From positions 1 to 64,000 of the forward strand of contig DVHE01000048.1 in assembly GCA_018712245.1 (NCBI GenBank): a stretch of DNA of 64,000 bases. Direction: 5' to 3'. The translations under genes and the position numbers were made by a program. The number at the start of each line of letters is the position of its first letter. The first letter of the stretch is position 1. Below are positions 53,996-64,000 of this stretch, piece by piece. The DNA is from Candidatus Avoscillospira avicola (GTDB lineage: Bacteria; Bacillota; Clostridia; Oscillospirales; Oscillospiraceae). A model generated the notes under the pieces. That model did not search any database. It was not told where the DNA came from and worked only from the letters and a program-made list of their open reading frames with translations.

Positions 53996-54001
53996 TACGC
54001 T

Positions 54002-55369
54002 ATGATGATACGAGTAACGCTTTCCATTCTCGCCTGCAAACTCTGCCGGGCCCTGCTGCGGCTGCTGGGAAGAGGCGGGACGGACTTCCCGGGCCGGGTG
54101 GCCCTGAAGCTCTGCCCCGGCGTGCTGGGCGTGCTGGCAAAGAACGTGACGACGATTCTCGTCACGGGCACCAACGGAAAGACCACCACCTCCCGGATGA
54201 TCGAGCAGGTGCTGGCCGACGCTGGAATTTCTTACTTTGCCAACAAGTCCGGCGCGAATCTCCTCAGCGGCGTCACCGCGGAGTTTGCCATGCATTCCAC
54301 CCTGACGGGGAAATGCAAGTACGACTATGCCCTCATCGAGGCAGATGAGGCGGCCTTCAAGGCCATCAGCAAGTTTGTGGACGCCAAGGTGGTGGCCGTG
54401 ACCAACGTCTTCCGGGACCAGCTGGACCGCTACGGCGAAGTGAGCCACACCCTGGACAACATCCGAATCGGCGTGGGCAACAGCAAAAACGCCACCCTCT
54501 GCCTCAACGCCGACGACTCCCTCTCCGGCTCCCTGGGCCGGGAGATGCCCAACCCCGTCCTCTACTACGGCGTGGACACGCCCATCTACAAGACGCGGGT
54601 GGCGGAGCTGTCCGACGCGCCCTACTGCCCCCACTGCAAGCACGCCTACGTCTATGACTACGTGACCTACGGCCACCTGGGCGGCTATCGCTGCCCCCAC
54701 TGCGGCAGCCATCGCCCCGCGCCCCAGGTGCACGTTTCCCGCGTCCTCTCCTCCGACGCCCAGTGCTCCCGGGTGGAGTTCTCCCTGGACGGCAAGACCG
54801 TCCCCGCCGTCATCAACCTGCCCGGCGGCTACAACATCTACAACGCCGCCACGACCATGGCGGTGGCCAAGGCGCTGGACATCCCGCCGGAGCTGGCGGC
54901 CAAGTCCCTGGGCAGCTTCTCCTGCGGCTTCGGACGGATGGAGAAGTTCGATATCCGCGGCACATCCCTGCGGATGATCCTGATTAAAAACCCCGCCGGG
55001 TGCAACCAGGTTCTGAACTTCCTCACCGACACCGCCGAGCCCTTCGTCTTTGTGGCCTGCCTCAACGACCGGGCCCAGGACGGCAAGGACGTCAGCTGGA
55101 TCTGGGACGTGGACTTCGAGCGGCTGGTGGCCATGGAGCAGCTTCAAAAGATCGTCGTCTCCGGTATCCGGGCCGACGATATGGCCATGCGCTTCAAGTA
55201 CGCCGGGATGCCCACCGACAAGATCGAGGTCATCCGCGACTACGGCCAGCTGGTGGAATCCCTGATTCAAGAGGGCAAAATGGTCTATATCATGCCCACC
55301 TACACCGCCATGCTGGAGCTGCGGGGCACCATCAGCAAGCACTACGGCTTCAAGGCCTTCTGGGAATAG
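54002..55369 (+). CDS. murT: Lipid II isoglutaminyl synthase, MurT subunit
   Basis: 455-aa Mur-ligase-like protein that, with GatD, amidates the D-Glu of lipid II. P-loop GTNGKTTTSRM at about residues 56-66. The MurT-specific Cys4 zinc ribbon CPHC..CPHCG lies near residues 208-235. The C-terminal DUF1727 domain (about 310-450) contains KNPAGCNQVLNFL. Short hydrophobic N-terminus (about residues 4-22). Start is 54002 or the next ATG at 54005; neither has a ribosome site, see promoter. gatD follows 9 bases later. Confidence 0.92.
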   Translation: MMIRVTLSILACKLCRALLRLLGRGGTDFPGRVALKLCPGVLGVLAKNVTTILVTGTNGKTTTSRMIEQVLADAGISYFANKSGANLLSGVTAEFAMHSTLTGKCKYDYALIEADEAAFKAISKFVDAKVVAVTNVFRDQLDRYGEVSHTLDNIRIGVGNSKNATLCLNADDSLSGSLGREMPNPVLYYGVDTPIYKTRVAELSDAPYCPHCKHAYVYDYVTYGHLGGYRCPHCGSHRPAPQVHVSRVLSSDAQCSRVEFSLDGKTVPAVINLPGGYNIYNAATTMAVAKALDIPPELAAKSLGSFSCGFGRMEKFDIRGTSLRMILIKNPAGCNQVLNFLTDTAEPFVFVACLNDRAQDGKDVSWIWDVDFERLVAMEQLQKIVVSGIRADDMAMRFKYAGMPTDKIEVIRDYGQLVESLIQEGKMVYIMPTYTAMLELRGTISKHYGFKAFWE

Positions 55370-55378
55370 GAGGGGCAC

Positions 55379-56110
55379 ATGGAACTGAAAATCTGTCACC
55401 TCTACCCGGATGTCCTCAACCTCTACGGAGACCGGGGCAACATCCTCTGCATGGAGCAGCGCCTTAAGTGGCGGGGCATCGACGTCACCACCACAGGCGT
55501 CTCGGTGGGTGAGCCGCTGAAGGCCTCCGACTTCGACCTCTTTTTCATCGGCGGCGGACAGGACTTCGAGGAGGAAGTGCTGCTGCCGGACCTGGCCGCC
55601 GGGAAGACCGCCGAGCTGAAGGCCGCCATCGAGGACGGGGCCACGTTCCTGGCCATCTGCGGCGGCTACCAGATGCTGGGCGCCTACTATAAGACCTGGG
55701 ACGGCCAGCAGTGCGACTTCACCGGCGCCTTGGACCTCTATACCGAGGGAAGCGCCGAGCGGATGATCGGCAACTACGCCTTCACCTGCGAGGAGCTGGG
55801 CGTCAACGTGGTGGGCTTTGAGAACCACTCCGGCAAGACCTACCTGGGCAGCGGCGTCAAGCCCCTGGGCAAGGTCCTGAAGGGCTACGGCAACAACGGC
55901 GCCGACGGCACCGAGGGCGCGCGGTACAAAAACGTCTTCGCCACCTACTCCCACGGCTGCCTGCTGCCCAAGAACCCGGTCCTCTGCGACCATATCCTCA
56001 AAACCGCGCTGGCGCGGAAGTACGGCGCCGTGGAGCTGCCGCCCCTGGACGACACCCTGGAAGAGAGCGCCCACCGGTATATGGAGCGCCGCCTGCTGGG
56101 CGAGAAATAG
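55379..56110 (+). CDS. gatD: Lipid II isoglutaminyl synthase, GatD glutamine amidotransferase subunit
   Basis: 243-aa class I (CobB/CobQ-like) glutaminase that feeds ammonia to MurT. Nucleophile Cys94 in LAICGGYQMLG; the His is in TYSHGCLLPKNP near residue 190; FFIGGGQDFEEE is the N-terminal glycine-rich strand. TAGGAGGGGCAC precedes the ATG and overlaps the murT stop. Amidated lipid II is common in Gram-positive bacteria and affects cross-linking. Confidence 0.93.
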   Translation: MELKICHLYPDVLNLYGDRGNILCMEQRLKWRGIDVTTTGVSVGEPLKASDFDLFFIGGGQDFEEEVLLPDLAAGKTAELKAAIEDGATFLAICGGYQMLGAYYKTWDGQQCDFTGALDLYTEGSAERMIGNYAFTCEELGVNVVGFENHSGKTYLGSGVKPLGKVLKGYGNNGADGTEGARYKNVFATYSHGCLLPKNPVLCDHILKTALARKYGAVELPPLDDTLEESAHRYMERRLLGEK

Positions 56111-56123
56111 CACGTTCCAATTC

Positions 56124-56171
56124 CCCCGCGGAGGACGGCACTAGCCGTCCTCCGCGGGGTTCGTCTTTTTC
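56124..56171 (+). terminator. Intrinsic terminator after gatD
   Basis: CCCCGCGGAGGACGG (56124-56138) pairs with CCGTCCTCCGCGGGG (56145-56159), followed by TTCGTCTTTTT. Confidence 0.88.
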
Positions 56172-56248
56172 CACCGGAGAAAATTTCCCCGGCGCGCCGG
56201 GAATATGCTACAATGGGAATAAGACTTGGGAAGAGAGGGACGGAAGCC

Positions 56249-57988
56249 ATGAAACTAATTCTGCGCCAGATGGGCCTTTACCGGGGAAAAATCACGATCT
56301 CCATGGCCATTAAGCTGGCGGGCGCCATGACGGAGCTGCTGATTCCCTATATCCTGGAGCATCTCATCGACGAGGTGGTGCCCCTGGGGCGGCTGGAGCT
56401 GGTGCTTTTGTGGAGCGCGCTGATGATTCTGACAGCCATACTCACTCGGCAGCTGAACGTCTGGGCCAACCGCATCGCCATTGACAATGCCCACCGCGTC
56501 TCCTACGACGTGCGCCAGGCCCTCTTCGCCAGGACGGCCAACCTCTCCGGCGCGCAGTTTGACCGCTTCGGCCTGCCCAGCCTCATCAGCCGCATGACCA
56601 GCGACAGCTATAACGTCCAGTCCTGCGTCCAGGCGCTGCAAACCATGTGCGTGCGGATGCCCATGATGCTCCTGGGCGGCATCGCCGTCACCCTGGCCAT
56701 GGATGCGCCCCTGGCCTCGATTTTGCTGGTGATCGTGCCGGTGCTGGTGGTGGTGATCCTCTGCGTCTCCCGCTACGGCATCCCTCTCTACCGCCGGGTG
56801 CAGGCGCGGCTGGACGAAGTGGTGCGGGTGATGCGGGAGGACATCACCGGCATCCGCGTCGTTAAGGCCCTGAGCAAGACGGCCTATGAAAAGCAGCACT
56901 TCGCCCGGGAGAACGAAGCCATGACCCGGGCCGACATCCGGGCCAGCACCATCATGGCCATCCCCGGCCCCCTGATGCAGATGTGCCTGAACCTGGGCCT
57001 CACCCTGGTGGTCTGGGTAGGCGCCCGGCGGGTCTACACCGGGGCCATCAAACCCGGCGTGATTCTGGCCTTTTTGACGTATTTCAACATGGTCATCCAG
57101 GGCGTCATGGGCATCAACCGGATTTTCATCATGCTCAGCAAGGCCACGGCCTCCGCCAACCGCATCGAGCAGGTGCTTTCCCTGGAGCCGGATCAGCGCG
57201 TCCTGCTGCCGGAGGAGGCCAAGACGCCCCAGGGAGAGGAGTTCATCCGTTTTGAGCATGTGTCCTTCCACTACGATGCCGACGCCGGGGACGGTCAGGA
57301 GCGGGAAAAATGCCTCAGCGACATCAGCTTTGCCCTGAAGCGGGGCGAGAGCCTGGGGATCATCGGCCCCACCGGCTGCGGCAAGACCACGATTGTCAAC
57401 CTCCTGATGCGGTTTTACGACGTGGAGGAGGGCGGCGTCTTTGTGGATGGCCGCGACGTGCGCACCTACCAGTTGGACGCACTGCGGCGGAAGTTCGGCG
57501 TGGTGTTTCAGAACGACATGGTGTTCTATAACTCCCTGCGGGAGAACATCCGCTTTGGCCGCCCGCTGGAGGATCGGGCGCTGCTGGCGGCGGTGGAGGA
57601 CGCGGCGGCGATGGAGTACGTCGGCTCCCTGGACGACGGACTCAGCCACCAGGCGGAGATCAAGGGCGCCAACCTCTCCGGCGGGCAGAAGCAGCGGATG
57701 CTGATCGCCCGGGCCCTGGCCGGCGATCCGGAAATCCTCATTCTGGACGACTCCTCTTCGGCCCTGGACTATCAGACCGATGCGGCGCTGCGCCGGGCCA
57801 TCCAGGCCCACCACAGCCGCTCCACCACCATCATGGTGGCCCAGCGGGTCAGCTCCATCCAGTCCATGACCCATATCCTGGTGATGGACGACGGGCGGGC
57901 CATCGGCTACGGCACCCACCAGGAGCTGCTGGAGACCTGCCCGGCCTACCGGGAGATTTACCGCGCCCAGATGGGCGCGCTGGCTTAA
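56249..57988 (+). CDS. ABC exporter half-transporter, degenerate-site subunit
   Basis: 579-aa protein: six-segment ABC exporter membrane domain (about residues 1-310) and ATPase domain (about 335-570). Walker A GPTGCGKTT near 373-381, signature LSGGQKQR, and Walker B ILILDDSSSALD, where Asp replaces the catalytic Glu. This is the degenerate half of a heterodimeric exporter such as TM287/288 or BmrCD. The ATG at 56249 follows GAGAGGGACGGAAGCC. The partner gene is 183 bases downstream, separated by a large palindrome. Substrate unknown, drugs or lipids most likely. Confidence 0.9.
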   Translation: MKLILRQMGLYRGKITISMAIKLAGAMTELLIPYILEHLIDEVVPLGRLELVLLWSALMILTAILTRQLNVWANRIAIDNAHRVSYDVRQALFARTANLSGAQFDRFGLPSLISRMTSDSYNVQSCVQALQTMCVRMPMMLLGGIAVTLAMDAPLASILLVIVPVLVVVILCVSRYGIPLYRRVQARLDEVVRVMREDITGIRVVKALSKTAYEKQHFARENEAMTRADIRASTIMAIPGPLMQMCLNLGLTLVVWVGARRVYTGAIKPGVILAFLTYFNMVIQGVMGINRIFIMLSKATASANRIEQVLSLEPDQRVLLPEEAKTPQGEEFIRFEHVSFHYDADAGDGQEREKCLSDISFALKRGESLGIIGPTGCGKTTIVNLLMRFYDVEEGGVFVDGRDVRTYQLDALRRKFGVVFQNDMVFYNSLRENIRFGRPLEDRALLAAVEDAAAMEYVGSLDDGLSHQAEIKGANLSGGQKQRMLIARALAGDPEILILDDSSSALDYQTDAALRRAIQAHHSRSTTIMVAQRVSSIQSMTHILVMDDGRAIGYGTHQELLETCPAYREIYRAQMGALA

Positions 57989-57989
57989 C

Positions 57990-58148
57990 GTAAACGCCGA
58001 TCAAACAGACAGCGGCGGCCGGCGGATCTTTTGTTCCAACTGTGCAGTTTGAAAATCTGGCAAGACATCCAGTATTGCGGCGATTTCCAAACTTTCATTT
58101 GAAACAAAATCTCTCGCCGCCTGCTCTTGCGATTTAATCAGCGTTTAC
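57990..58148. repeat. 159-bp imperfect palindrome between the two ABC genes
   Basis: The ends GTAAACGCCGAT and ATCAGCGTTTAC match as a 12-bp inverted repeat with one difference. Pairing continues inwards: GATCTTTTGTTCCAACT against ATTTGAAACAAAATCTC, and GCAGTTTGAAAATC against GATTTCCAAACTTTC, so the whole element can fold into one long hairpin. It is less GC-rich than its surroundings. It begins two bases after the first ABC stop. Likely a MITE-like element or a large regulatory/processing hairpin; no T-run. Confidence 0.7.
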
Positions 58149-58171
58149 TAGATCGAAGGGAGGGAGACGCC

Positions 58172-59944
58172 ATGCCGCCGAGAGGCTTGGGCGCGAAAAA
58201 AGAAAAACCCAAGGACACCCGGGGGACGATCCGCCGGATCGCCCGCTACCTCACCCGCTACCGGTGGGTGCTGCTGGCGCTGCTGGTCTGCACCCTCGTC
58301 AGCAACGTGGGGAACCTGCTGGGGCCGACCTTTGCCGGCAAGGCCATCGGCGCGGCGGTGGACGCCGGGCAGGTGGACTTCGCCGTGGTGGCCTACTACG
58401 CCAAGTGGATGCTGGGGGCCTATCTGGTGGGGAATCTCCTCTCCTTCCTGGTGAACCAGGGCATGATGCGCCTGGGCCGACGGGTGGCCCGGCAGATGCG
58501 CCAGGACGTGTTTGACAAGCTGATGGCCCTGCCGGTCAGCTACTTTGACCGCAACCAGGCCGGCGACATCATCAGCCGCGTCTCCTACGACATCGACGTG
58601 GTGACGACCTGCCTCTCCGCCGACCTCATTCAGATTCTTACCAGCGTCGTCACCGTGGTGGGCTCCTTCGGGATGATGTGCATGATCTCGCTGCCCATGG
58701 TGACGGGGCTGTGCATCACCATTCCCATGGCCATCGGCTTCACACGGTTTATGGGCAAGCGGACGCGGCCCCTCTACGCCCGGCGCAGTGCCGCCTATGG
58801 CCGGATGAACGGCTATGTGGAGGAAATGTTCTCCGGCCAGAAGACCATCCTGGCCTACGCCTATGAGGACCAGGTCTGCGAGGACTTCTCCCAAATCAAC
58901 CGCGATGCCGCCGAGGCCTACCGGGCCGCCGACGCCCTGGGCATGACCACCGGCCCGACCATCAATATGATCAACAACCTGGGCCTCTCCCTGGTGGGCA
59001 TGGCCGGGGCGGTACTGTACCTGCTGGGCCTGACCGGCATGGAGCAGATATCCTCCTTCGTCCTCTACTCTCGGAAGTTCTGCGGCCCCATCAACGAGGT
59101 GGCCAATATCCTCAACGAACTCTATTCGGCCCTGGCGGCGGCGGAGCGGGTCTTCGCGCTGCTGGACCAGCCGGAGGAGACCGCCGACGCCCCCGGCGCC
59201 CAGGTGCTTTCCCGGGTGGCGGGGGAGGTGGAGATGGACCACGTCCGCTTCGGCTATCTCCCGGGGCAGACGGTGCTGCACGACCTGAGCCTCCGGGCAA
59301 AGCCGGGGCAGACCGTTGCCATCGTGGGCCACACCGGCGCGGGCAAGACCACCATCATCAACCTCCTGATGCGGTTTTACGACGTGGACAGCGGCGAGAT
59401 TCGGGTGGACGGAACGCCCATCTGCCGCCTGACCCGGGATTCCCTCCGCCGGGCCTACGCCATGGTGCTGCAGGACACCTGGGTCTTCCACGGCACGGTC
59501 TATGAGAACATCGCCTACGGCAAGGAGGGCGCCACCATGGAGGAAGTGGTGGCGGCTGCCAAGGCGGCGCGGATTCACAGCTACATCATGCGGCTGCCCC
59601 AGGGCTACCAGACCGTCATCCGCGAGGACGGCGGCAACATCAGCAAGGGGCAGAAGCAGCTTTTGACCATCGCCCGGGCCATGCTCTACGACACCCATAT
59701 GCTGATTCTCGACGAGGCCACCAGCAATGTGGATACCAACACCGAGCAGCAGGTCCAGCGGGCCATGCAGACGCTGATGCAGGGCAAGACCTGCTTCGTC
59801 ATCGCCCACCGGCTCTCCACCATCCAGAACGCCGACTGGATTTTGGTCATGGACCACGGCGACGTGGTGGAGCAGGGCACCCACGAGACGCTGATGGCCC
59901 AAAAGGGCGCCTACTACCGCCTCTACGCCGCGCAGTTTTCGTAG
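58172..59944 (+). CDS. ABC exporter half-transporter, consensus-site subunit
   Basis: 590-aa partner of the preceding protein: a basic N-terminal tail, six membrane segments (about residues 40-325) and ATPase domain (about 350-585). Walker A GHTGAGKTT near 386-394, Walker B MLILDEATSNVD with intact catalytic Glu, but a deviant signature ISKGQKQLL instead of LSGGQ. Together with the first half this gives one active and one degenerate ATP site. The ATG at 58172 has AAGGGAGGGAG upstream. Its TAG stop (59942-59944) lies within the GTAGGGGC edge of a dispersed palindrome. Confidence 0.9.
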   Translation: MPPRGLGAKKEKPKDTRGTIRRIARYLTRYRWVLLALLVCTLVSNVGNLLGPTFAGKAIGAAVDAGQVDFAVVAYYAKWMLGAYLVGNLLSFLVNQGMMRLGRRVARQMRQDVFDKLMALPVSYFDRNQAGDIISRVSYDIDVVTTCLSADLIQILTSVVTVVGSFGMMCMISLPMVTGLCITIPMAIGFTRFMGKRTRPLYARRSAAYGRMNGYVEEMFSGQKTILAYAYEDQVCEDFSQINRDAAEAYRAADALGMTTGPTINMINNLGLSLVGMAGAVLYLLGLTGMEQISSFVLYSRKFCGPINEVANILNELYSALAAAERVFALLDQPEETADAPGAQVLSRVAGEVEMDHVRFGYLPGQTVLHDLSLRAKPGQTVAIVGHTGAGKTTIINLLMRFYDVDSGEIRVDGTPICRLTRDSLRRAYAMVLQDTWVFHGTVYENIAYGKEGATMEEVVAAAKAARIHSYIMRLPQGYQTVIREDGGNISKGQKQLLTIARAMLYDTHMLILDEATSNVDTNTEQQVQRAMQTLMQGKTCFVIAHRLSTIQNADWILVMDHGDVVEQGTHETLMAQKGAYYRLYAAQFS

Positions 59945-59970
59945 GGGCAGATGCCCACATCCGCCCGCCA
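59941..59970. repeat. Degenerate family b palindrome at the 3' end of the ABC gene
   Basis: GTAGGGGCAGATGCCCACATCCGCCCGCC: the GTAGGGGC edge provides the stop codon of the upstream gene. The following 150 bases (to 60120) hold nothing I recognise. Confidence 0.65.
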
Positions 59971-60120
59971 GCTGGCGCTTCCCGCCGCGCCCGCGCGCCC
60001 TGGACCGGGTGGGCCTTCGCATGGAGCGCAGGCGTCTGACAGGGAAGACCATGCGGATGAGGAGGCTGCCCATGCGGGTATGCAGCAATAGCGTGCTGTC
60101 GTGCGACATGATCGAATAGC

Positions 60121-60442
60121 GTGTACGGTGTGTACGGCGCGTGTACGGCACAATTTTAGGGGGTGAAAACCCGCAAACCCAGTATTCCCAAGGGTTTGCG
60201 GGACTGTGTACGGTGTGTACGGCATAATTGTAAAAAAACCAGAAAATCTGATTTTAGGAATTTACCCTTTTTAGACAAAAGTGCTGTTCGCACCGTACAC
60301 ACCCCCCCGCGCCGAAATTGTCACAACAAAATAGCGTGGATAGTGTTGGGTTTTTGGACAATTCCAAGGAGCTTTGAAACTTTTCAGGGAAAATCCAGTC
60401 AGGCTGCGTGTACGCGGCCCGCTGTACACGCGCTGTACACGC
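60121..60442. repeat. GTGTACGG iteron-like array with hairpin
   Basis: GTGTACGG occurs at 60121, 60130, 60141, 60206 and 60215 (two pairs with exact 9-base spacing) and inverted at 60293-60300. Related palindromic sites follow: GTGTACGC at 60408 and a tandem GCTGTACACGC at 60421-60431 and 60432-60442. Between the first two clusters lies an 11-bp stem, CCCGCAAACCC (60170-60180) with GGGTTTGCGGG (60192-60202). No protein frame is credible. It resembles iteron or multi-operator DNA, but no initiator or regulator gene is adjacent. Confidence 0.75.
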
Positions 60443-60499
60443 TGTCACGCCCCCACGGGGTGCGGTGTGTGTGCCGGGTGCGCGGGGGGAATCGGCAGT

Positions 60500-60560
60500 T
60501 GGCGGGCCGATGTAGGCATCGGCCCCTACGAACAACGATGCGGCATCGGCCCCTACAGCG
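60500..60560. repeat. Family b palindromes upstream of alaS
   Basis: A complete copy GGGCCGATGTAGGCATCGGCCC with CCCTAC edge (about 60504-60530) is followed by a half copy GCATCGGCCCCTAC (60543-60556). Confidence 0.7.
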
Positions 60561-60634
60561 GAATCGGCGGGGCGCTGCGTTGTCTGCCGCGGGGGCTTTT
60601 GCAAATCCTTCGGCAAAATCCCCCCTCTGGCCTA

Positions 60635-60662
60635 TTGACAACGGCAAAAATCGTGGTAGAAT
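60635..60662 (+). promoter_or_regulatory. Promoter of the T-box-alaS unit
   Basis: TTGACA (60635-60640), 16 bases, TAGAAT (60657-60662), just upstream of the T-box leader. Confidence 0.7.
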
Positions 60663-60667
60663 AGCGG

Positions 60668-60902
60668 TATTGTGAAACATATGGCCATTTGCCATGAGGA
60701 AGTCAGCCACAGCCACGGGGCCGGAGCGAGGAGGGGACGGTGCAAGCCCTCTGCACACCAGCTGGGGCAGCCGCTTCGGAGCATCCCTGCGAGGAGCAGG
60801 GCGGTCCACCGCCGTTACCCGGTGAGCTAAGACGCCGCGCCGCGGCAATTAGGGTGGTACCGTGAAGCTTGCTTCGCCCCTATGCTGGGCGGGGCATTAT
60901 TT
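60668..60902 (+). ncRNA. T-box leader of alaS
   Basis: Leader with the T-box AGGGTGGTACCGTGAAGC at about 60849-60866, upstream helical regions (CAGGGCGGTCC, GGTGAGCTAAGACGCC), and a terminator in which GCCCC and GGGGC flank the loop, followed by ATTATTTTTTT (to about 60907). An Ala specifier is expected from the gene; I could not fix its position with confidence, a GCA near 60779 being one option. Confidence 0.82.
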
Positions 60903-60929
60903 TTTTCGGAAAAAGGAGAAAGAACCCCC

Positions 60930-63599
<2,670 letters not shown>

Positions 63600-63630
63600 T
63601 AAATAGTGAAAGAGCAATAAATAGACACAA

Positions 63631-63665
63631 ACGGGCGCACCGCAGTCAGCGGTGCGCCCGTTGTC
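63631..63665 (+). terminator. Intrinsic terminator after alaS
   Basis: ACGGGCGCACCGC (63631-63643) pairs with GCGGTGCGCCCGT (63649-63661), followed by TGTCT; a strong stem with a short T stretch. Confidence 0.75.
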
Positions 63666-63669
63666 TACC

Positions 63670-63935
63670 TGTAGGGGCACGCGGCGCTGATGATTTCCCA
63701 TTCCCACCGTAGGGGCGCGCATCGCACGTCCGTTTGTTTGTGTCGCCTGAGCGCCCGCGCCAAACGCACCAGGCCTGACGGAGAGATATCGTAGGGGCGG
63801 CTATCAGCCGCCCGCTATGCCGCCCCGCCGGAGCGCTGGCGGGAAACGCACGCTCACCCCGTCTTTACCGTAGGGGCCGATGCCCACATCGGCCCGTGCC
63901 GCGAAGCCGCCACGCCGGAGCGCTGACGGCAACGC
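63670..63935. repeat. Palindromic repeat mosaic at the window end
   Basis: Family c palindrome with GTAGGGGC edge (about 63709-63731), a family a palindrome GTAGGGGCGGCTATCAGCC (about 63792-63816), and a family b palindrome GTAGGGGCCGATGCCCACATCGGCC (about 63871-63896) followed by GCCGCGAAGCC. No gene. Confidence 0.72.
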
Positions 63936-63969
63936 ACCGACCCGCGGTTCCAACGTCGGGGAACTGGGA

Positions 63970-63998
63970 TTGTGCTGGAAAGGAAAATATGGTATTAT
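63970..63998 (+). promoter_or_regulatory. Promoter facing out of the window
   Basis: TTGTGC (63970-63975), 17 bases, TATTAT (63993-63998). It presumably drives a gene beyond the right edge. Confidence 0.5.
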
Positions 63999-64000
63999 AA

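Follow-up and report, generated by a model that had tools for sequence, protein, structure and literature searches.

A mirrored iteron array near alaS in Candidatus Avoscillospira avicola, a candidate orphaned origin of a VapE-type element

In the 64,000-nucleotide stretch of Candidatus Avoscillospira avicola DNA analyzed here (the window), a repeat array at positions 60121 to 60449 is likely an orphaned replication origin, probably a relic, that once belonged to an integrative or satellite element of the VapE type. The array is located between an ABC-transporter gene and the T-box of alaS, and one further copy was detected in the genome (the C87 copy, at C87:14624-14850, with serS on one side and an ABC-transporter gene on the other). 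If this reading is true, gut Clostridia-like genomes contain free-standing origins of the PICI/VapE type, which the spacing and hairpin signature given here would help to recognize. The parts of the element and the adjoining alaS signals are as follows.

60023 to 60117, minus strand: flank also present in the C87 copy (identity of 82/95), with a minus-strand ORF fragment (MSHDSTLLLHTRMGSLLIRMVFP...)
60121 to 60148, plus strand: outer iteron set, three direct GTGTACGG units at 60121, 60130, and 60141 (spacing 9, 11)
60170 to 60202, plus strand: hairpin with an 11-bp perfect stem (CCCGCAAACCC/GGGTTTGCGGG) and a conserved CAGTATT.CCAAGG loop
60206 to 60222, plus strand: inner iteron pair, two direct GTGTACGG units (spacing 9)
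60223 to 60283, no strand: AT-rich stretch, candidate DNA unwinding element
60284 to 60300, minus strand: inner inverted pair, CTGTTCGC (the C87-type unit GCGAACAG) and CCGTACAC (the GTGTACGG unit), spacing 9
60408 to 60449, minus strand: outer inverted set, GTGTACGC, CTGTACAC at 60422, CTGTACAC at 60433, and a degenerate CTGTCACG at 60442
60635 to 60662, plus strand: probable alaS promoter (TTGACA...TAGAAT), read from the sequence and similar in genus members; outside the array
60685 to 60884, plus strand: alaS T-box leader (Rfam RF00230, E value of 3e-12, bit score below the gathering cutoff); outside the array

The octamer GTGTACGG occurs at 60121, 60130, 60141, 60206, and 60215 on the plus strand and at 60293 on the minus strand, and is absent elsewhere in the window, matching the five direct copies and one inverted copy listed in an earlier reading made from the letters alone (the sequence-only reading). 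These six copies fall inside 180 bp (60121 to 60300), compared with a window-wide expectation of ∼0.9, and six copies were reached in no shuffle. Among 60 dinucleotide shuffles of the whole window, the top octamer cluster per 330 bp reached 5 once and was otherwise 3 or 4, while clusters in 2000 local dinucleotide shuffles of the intergenic region were always ≤4. Across the 2.41-Mb genome, this is the sole GTGTACGG cluster of its kind (29 copies, the remaining 23 isolated), and the reversed control pattern occurred 20 times in the whole assembly. The sequence-only reading would have given up the array had the octamer been as frequent at other sites; GTGTACGG proved to be clustered here only. 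The other parts it had described were recovered as well, namely two pairs at exact 9-base spacing (60121/60130 and 60206/60215), a GTGTACGC at 60408, a tandem GCTGTACACGC pair at 60421 to 60442, the 11-bp perfect hairpin at 60170 to 60202, and a less GC-rich interior (0.22 over 60224 to 60273, versus about 0.55 to 0.83 in the flanks). It had overlooked an inverted GCGAACAG (CTGTTCGC, 60284 to 60291) at 9-bp spacing from the inverted GTGTACGG copy. The hairpin gave a DNA fold of −14 kcal/mol (z score of −5.3), and Rfam matches inside the array were all far below the cutoff. From left to right, the element is composed of direct units (9, 11), a pair at +65 (9), AT-rich sequence, an inverted pair (9), and an inverted set (11, 9), the last mirroring the spacing of the left set, and its right end carries GTGTACAG units.

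According to published work, PICI origins consist of an AT-rich region between two iteron sets, immediately 3′ of the initiator gene (PMC6092414), and the C-terminal domain of SaPI Rep reads its origin (PMC7581432). The layout in the window fits the PICI description. It differs from SaPI/PICI origins (pri-rep-ori) in having no rep gene immediately upstream, in the hairpin placed between outer and inner iterons, and in its solitary chromosomal location. Iteron plasmid origins of the Rep/DnaA type also have direct repeats beside an AT-rich element, whereas in the window element the AT-rich stretch has iteron sets of opposite orientation on its two sides, and no plasmid rep gene is visible.

Counterparts were found in a survey of 11 VapE loci (PF05272), mostly gut or Gram-positive. 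Iteron arrays, each with its own 7- to 8-bp unit, lay directly 3′ of VapE in eight of them (L023, L355, L358 to L362, and L365), a proportion that is no frequency estimate because the loci were picked by hand. An array density as high was present in 33 of 677 windows of those VapE loci, true arrays included. The array of L354 was further away from its VapE gene, and no array accompanied VapE in the double-stranded DNA phages L363 and L364. The VapE-linked Firmicutes arrays (L023, L355, and L358 to L361) resemble the window element in unit length and spacing and differ from it in lying directly 3′ of an intact VapE gene. In MT838598.1 (L355), a VapE homologue is followed by a mirrored GGGACAA array of three direct units (9, 10), a pair (8), AT-rich sequence, an inverted pair (8), and an inverted set (10, 9). 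In L023, a Ruminococcus MAG contig, twelve GTGTACGG copies in both orientations lie between a VapE-domain gene (PF05272) and a relaxase-like gene, which showed tblastn similarity to MobV-type plasmid recombination proteins and no Pfam match. Both arrays share the mirrored order of the window element. Moreover, the hairpin motif CAGTA....CAAGG...TTTGC also occurs in L355 and partly in L023, and the hairpin core is kept in the C87 copy and at two loci of another genome of the genus (G165). L023 and a solitary element of that genome (G165:C150) share the positions of an inverted unit (+23) and a pair (+45), which are +22 and +48 in L355; the inverted unit at +22/23 is missing from the window and C87. 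Exact 17-mer matches in genome contigs were mostly coding repeats or chance, L023 alone being relevant; BLAST of the element against plasmids and phages yielded no homologue, and no VapE closely related to that of L023 or L355 was found in IMG/VR. Among the four uses proposed by the sequence-only reading for such arrays (initiator, partition protein, recombinase, or repressor), the initiator is the one supported by these arrays of the same architecture 3′ of VapE, and the co-occurrence with a replication initiator that it had suggested looking for was seen in VapE-linked arrays elsewhere, one with the same octamer (L023).

Comparison of the two copies in the genome revealed a concerted change of the repeat unit. 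Window positions 60023 to 60302 share 84% identity with the C87 copy, yet at all five aligned direct units the window has GTGTACGG where C87 has GCGAACAG, with positions 2, 4, and 7 differing each time. In the gap-free part, 15/40 unit columns differ versus 23/210 other columns. The inverted unit at 60284 in the window is of the C87 type. Such a change would be expected if one sequence-specific protein with shifted specificity bound all units; independent neutral mutations would be hard to reconcile with the alignment, and conversion between units may be an alternative source. A rep-linked parallel was observed in Oscillospiraceae plasmids, where four homologous VapE-linked origins carry GTTGCC (L358 and L361), GTTGAC (L359), or GTTGTC (L360) at corresponding sites. 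The Rep proteins of L358 and L361 are 92% identical, while pairs with switched iterons share 83 to 92% identity in the ATPase core versus 47 to 61% in the C-terminal 60 columns, the N terminus diverging too. Sister origins that keep their backbone but have had their iterons replaced wholesale would be natural material on joint changes of initiator and origin specificity. The left flank (60023 to 60117) and the C87 copy contain a minus-strand ORF fragment (MSHDSTLLLHTRMGSLLIRM), in which most differences between copies are synonymous. Its segment from 60023 to 60109 matched no Pfam or PHROGs family in either copy, and a MATE-pump N terminus was ruled out for this flank, as it was unlike all ten MATE loci examined and the Pfam/PHROGs searches were empty.

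In tblastn searches, no convincing VapE, integrase, or MobV match was found in the window, in the next 8 kb, or around C87, with one marginal match (E value of 0.09) inside the 8 kb beyond the window; the earlier remark that no such gene adjoins the array therefore holds for these families. Likewise, no PF00589 integrase gene was found on contig C66 or C87, and the PF00589 matches of the genome are on other contigs beside other repeats. The window element resembles the VapE/PICI class in architecture and evolution, but no rep gene adjoins it, so its defining partner is missing, and it is not classed as a complete VapE/PICI-type member because the class-defining rep adjacency is absent. The sequence-only reading had also considered a deletion scar without conserved spacing: the element is probably a scar, left by a mobile element since lost, but its spacing is conserved.

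These features suggest how the element might once have worked. An AT-rich melting region would lie between two sets of an 8-bp iteron in opposite orientation, with the hairpin between outer and inner iterons. In the parent element, a VapE-domain helicase (Rep), the product of the gene immediately upstream, would recognize and bind the iterons, probably by means of its C-terminal region, form assemblies on either side of the AT-rich stretch, and then unwind this stretch. The origin would later have parted from its rep gene and is now solitary in the chromosome, most likely a relic of an integrative or satellite element that has since disappeared. Initiator binding, unwinding, and relic status are what we infer for this element.

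An unlikely alternative is that the array is a relic tyrosine-integrase attachment region, the direct octamers being arm-type sites around a lost or unrecognized core. Several phage-type integrase genes in the genus and in relatives are followed closely, on their 3′ side, by tandem 7- to 8-bp direct repeats with 10- to 12-bp spacing, and on phage contig L131 the same octamer GTGTACGG, in short direct repeats in pairs as in the window, lies on both sides of a tRNA/tmRNA-like core, next to an integrase that has an arm-binding domain. In addition, the hairpin core recurs close to guaA, to tRNA fragments, and to an integrase, and the hairpin motif near integrase or attachment sites of other genomes (L053, L057, and L045). 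However, arm-type sites of the L131 type flank a tRNA-like core next to int, and none was found at the window. No tRNA or other att core was recognized between the iteron sets, a tRNA/tmRNA search of 54000 to 64000 was negative (the target may have been other than a tRNA), and no integrase gene was found on C66 or C87. The opposed sets around the AT-rich stretch and their spacing agree better with VapE-linked origins, and the integrase-arm reading, initially preferred, was displaced by L355 and the VapE survey.

Several related loci were noted during these comparisons. Viral contigs L131 (3570 to 4010), L139, and L167 contain a probable attP with GTGTACGG pairs on both sides of a tRNA/tmRNA-3′-end-like sequence, adjoining an integrase gene with an Arm-DNA-bind_3 domain. 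Phage intergenic regions of L103 (38 to 300), L094, L111, and L125 have AT-rich sequence framed by sets of GTGTACGG-like repeats in opposite orientations and are possibly phage origins using the same octamer. In L053 (476 to 9464; G201:C82), a CRISPR-cas locus that looks like type I-C lies between two hairpin-core copies with TTTGACTACTG repeats, one of which adjoins a tRNA 3′ fragment, giving the appearance of a tRNA-inserted island. In relatives (L064, L065, L042, and L045), CCCGCAAACCC...GGGTTTGCGGG-like hairpins and short repeats occur just after the 3′ ends of guaA or other genes, possibly representing the ends of integrated elements.

It is also conceivable, albeit distinctly improbable, that solitary origins are kept for a function. 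They might be parasites consisting of an origin alone, which a VapE Rep replicates in trans, or decoys in the chromosome whose iterons titrate Rep brought in by incoming elements (incompatibility-based immunity); the concerted turnover of iterons would then reflect an arms race. A nonautonomous MITE-like element spread by a trans-acting recombinase or transposase is very unlikely. The inverted ends of the array would suit such an element, as would the solitary copies that two species carry in intergenic sites at gene ends or between convergent genes (the window, C87, G165:C150, and perhaps G165:C34), but no target-site duplications or fixed termini were seen, the copy number in this genome is two, and the copies have no common right end, C87 being without the right third of the element and ending differently.

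The alaS neighborhood was compared with those of the seven other genomes of the genus, all of which have an alaS match. The T-box is kept upstream of alaS in the six with a readable upstream region (G165, G097, G202, G204, G200, and G201), whereas the array was not found there, other genes occupying its place. The closest alaS is that of G165 (96% identity over 300 amino acids), with an apparent Crp/Fnr-type gene upstream. Because the array is missing upstream of the relatives' alaS, this intergenic stretch would be a variable one and the array in it an insertion or a relic, and regulation of alaS by the array was ruled out, as the promoter and T-box are kept in relatives and the array is not. 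A multisite operator for the alaS or ABC-transporter genes, which the position upstream of alaS might suggest, is hardly credible given the conserved alaS promoter and T-box downstream of an array missing in six genus members, the convergent intergenic region occupied by the C87 copy, and a repeat unit without dyad symmetry in C87. Next to the array, at 60500 to 60560, lies a GGGCCGATGTAGGCATCGGCCCCTAC-type intergenic repeat, and similar ones are found near the C87 and G165:C150 copies.
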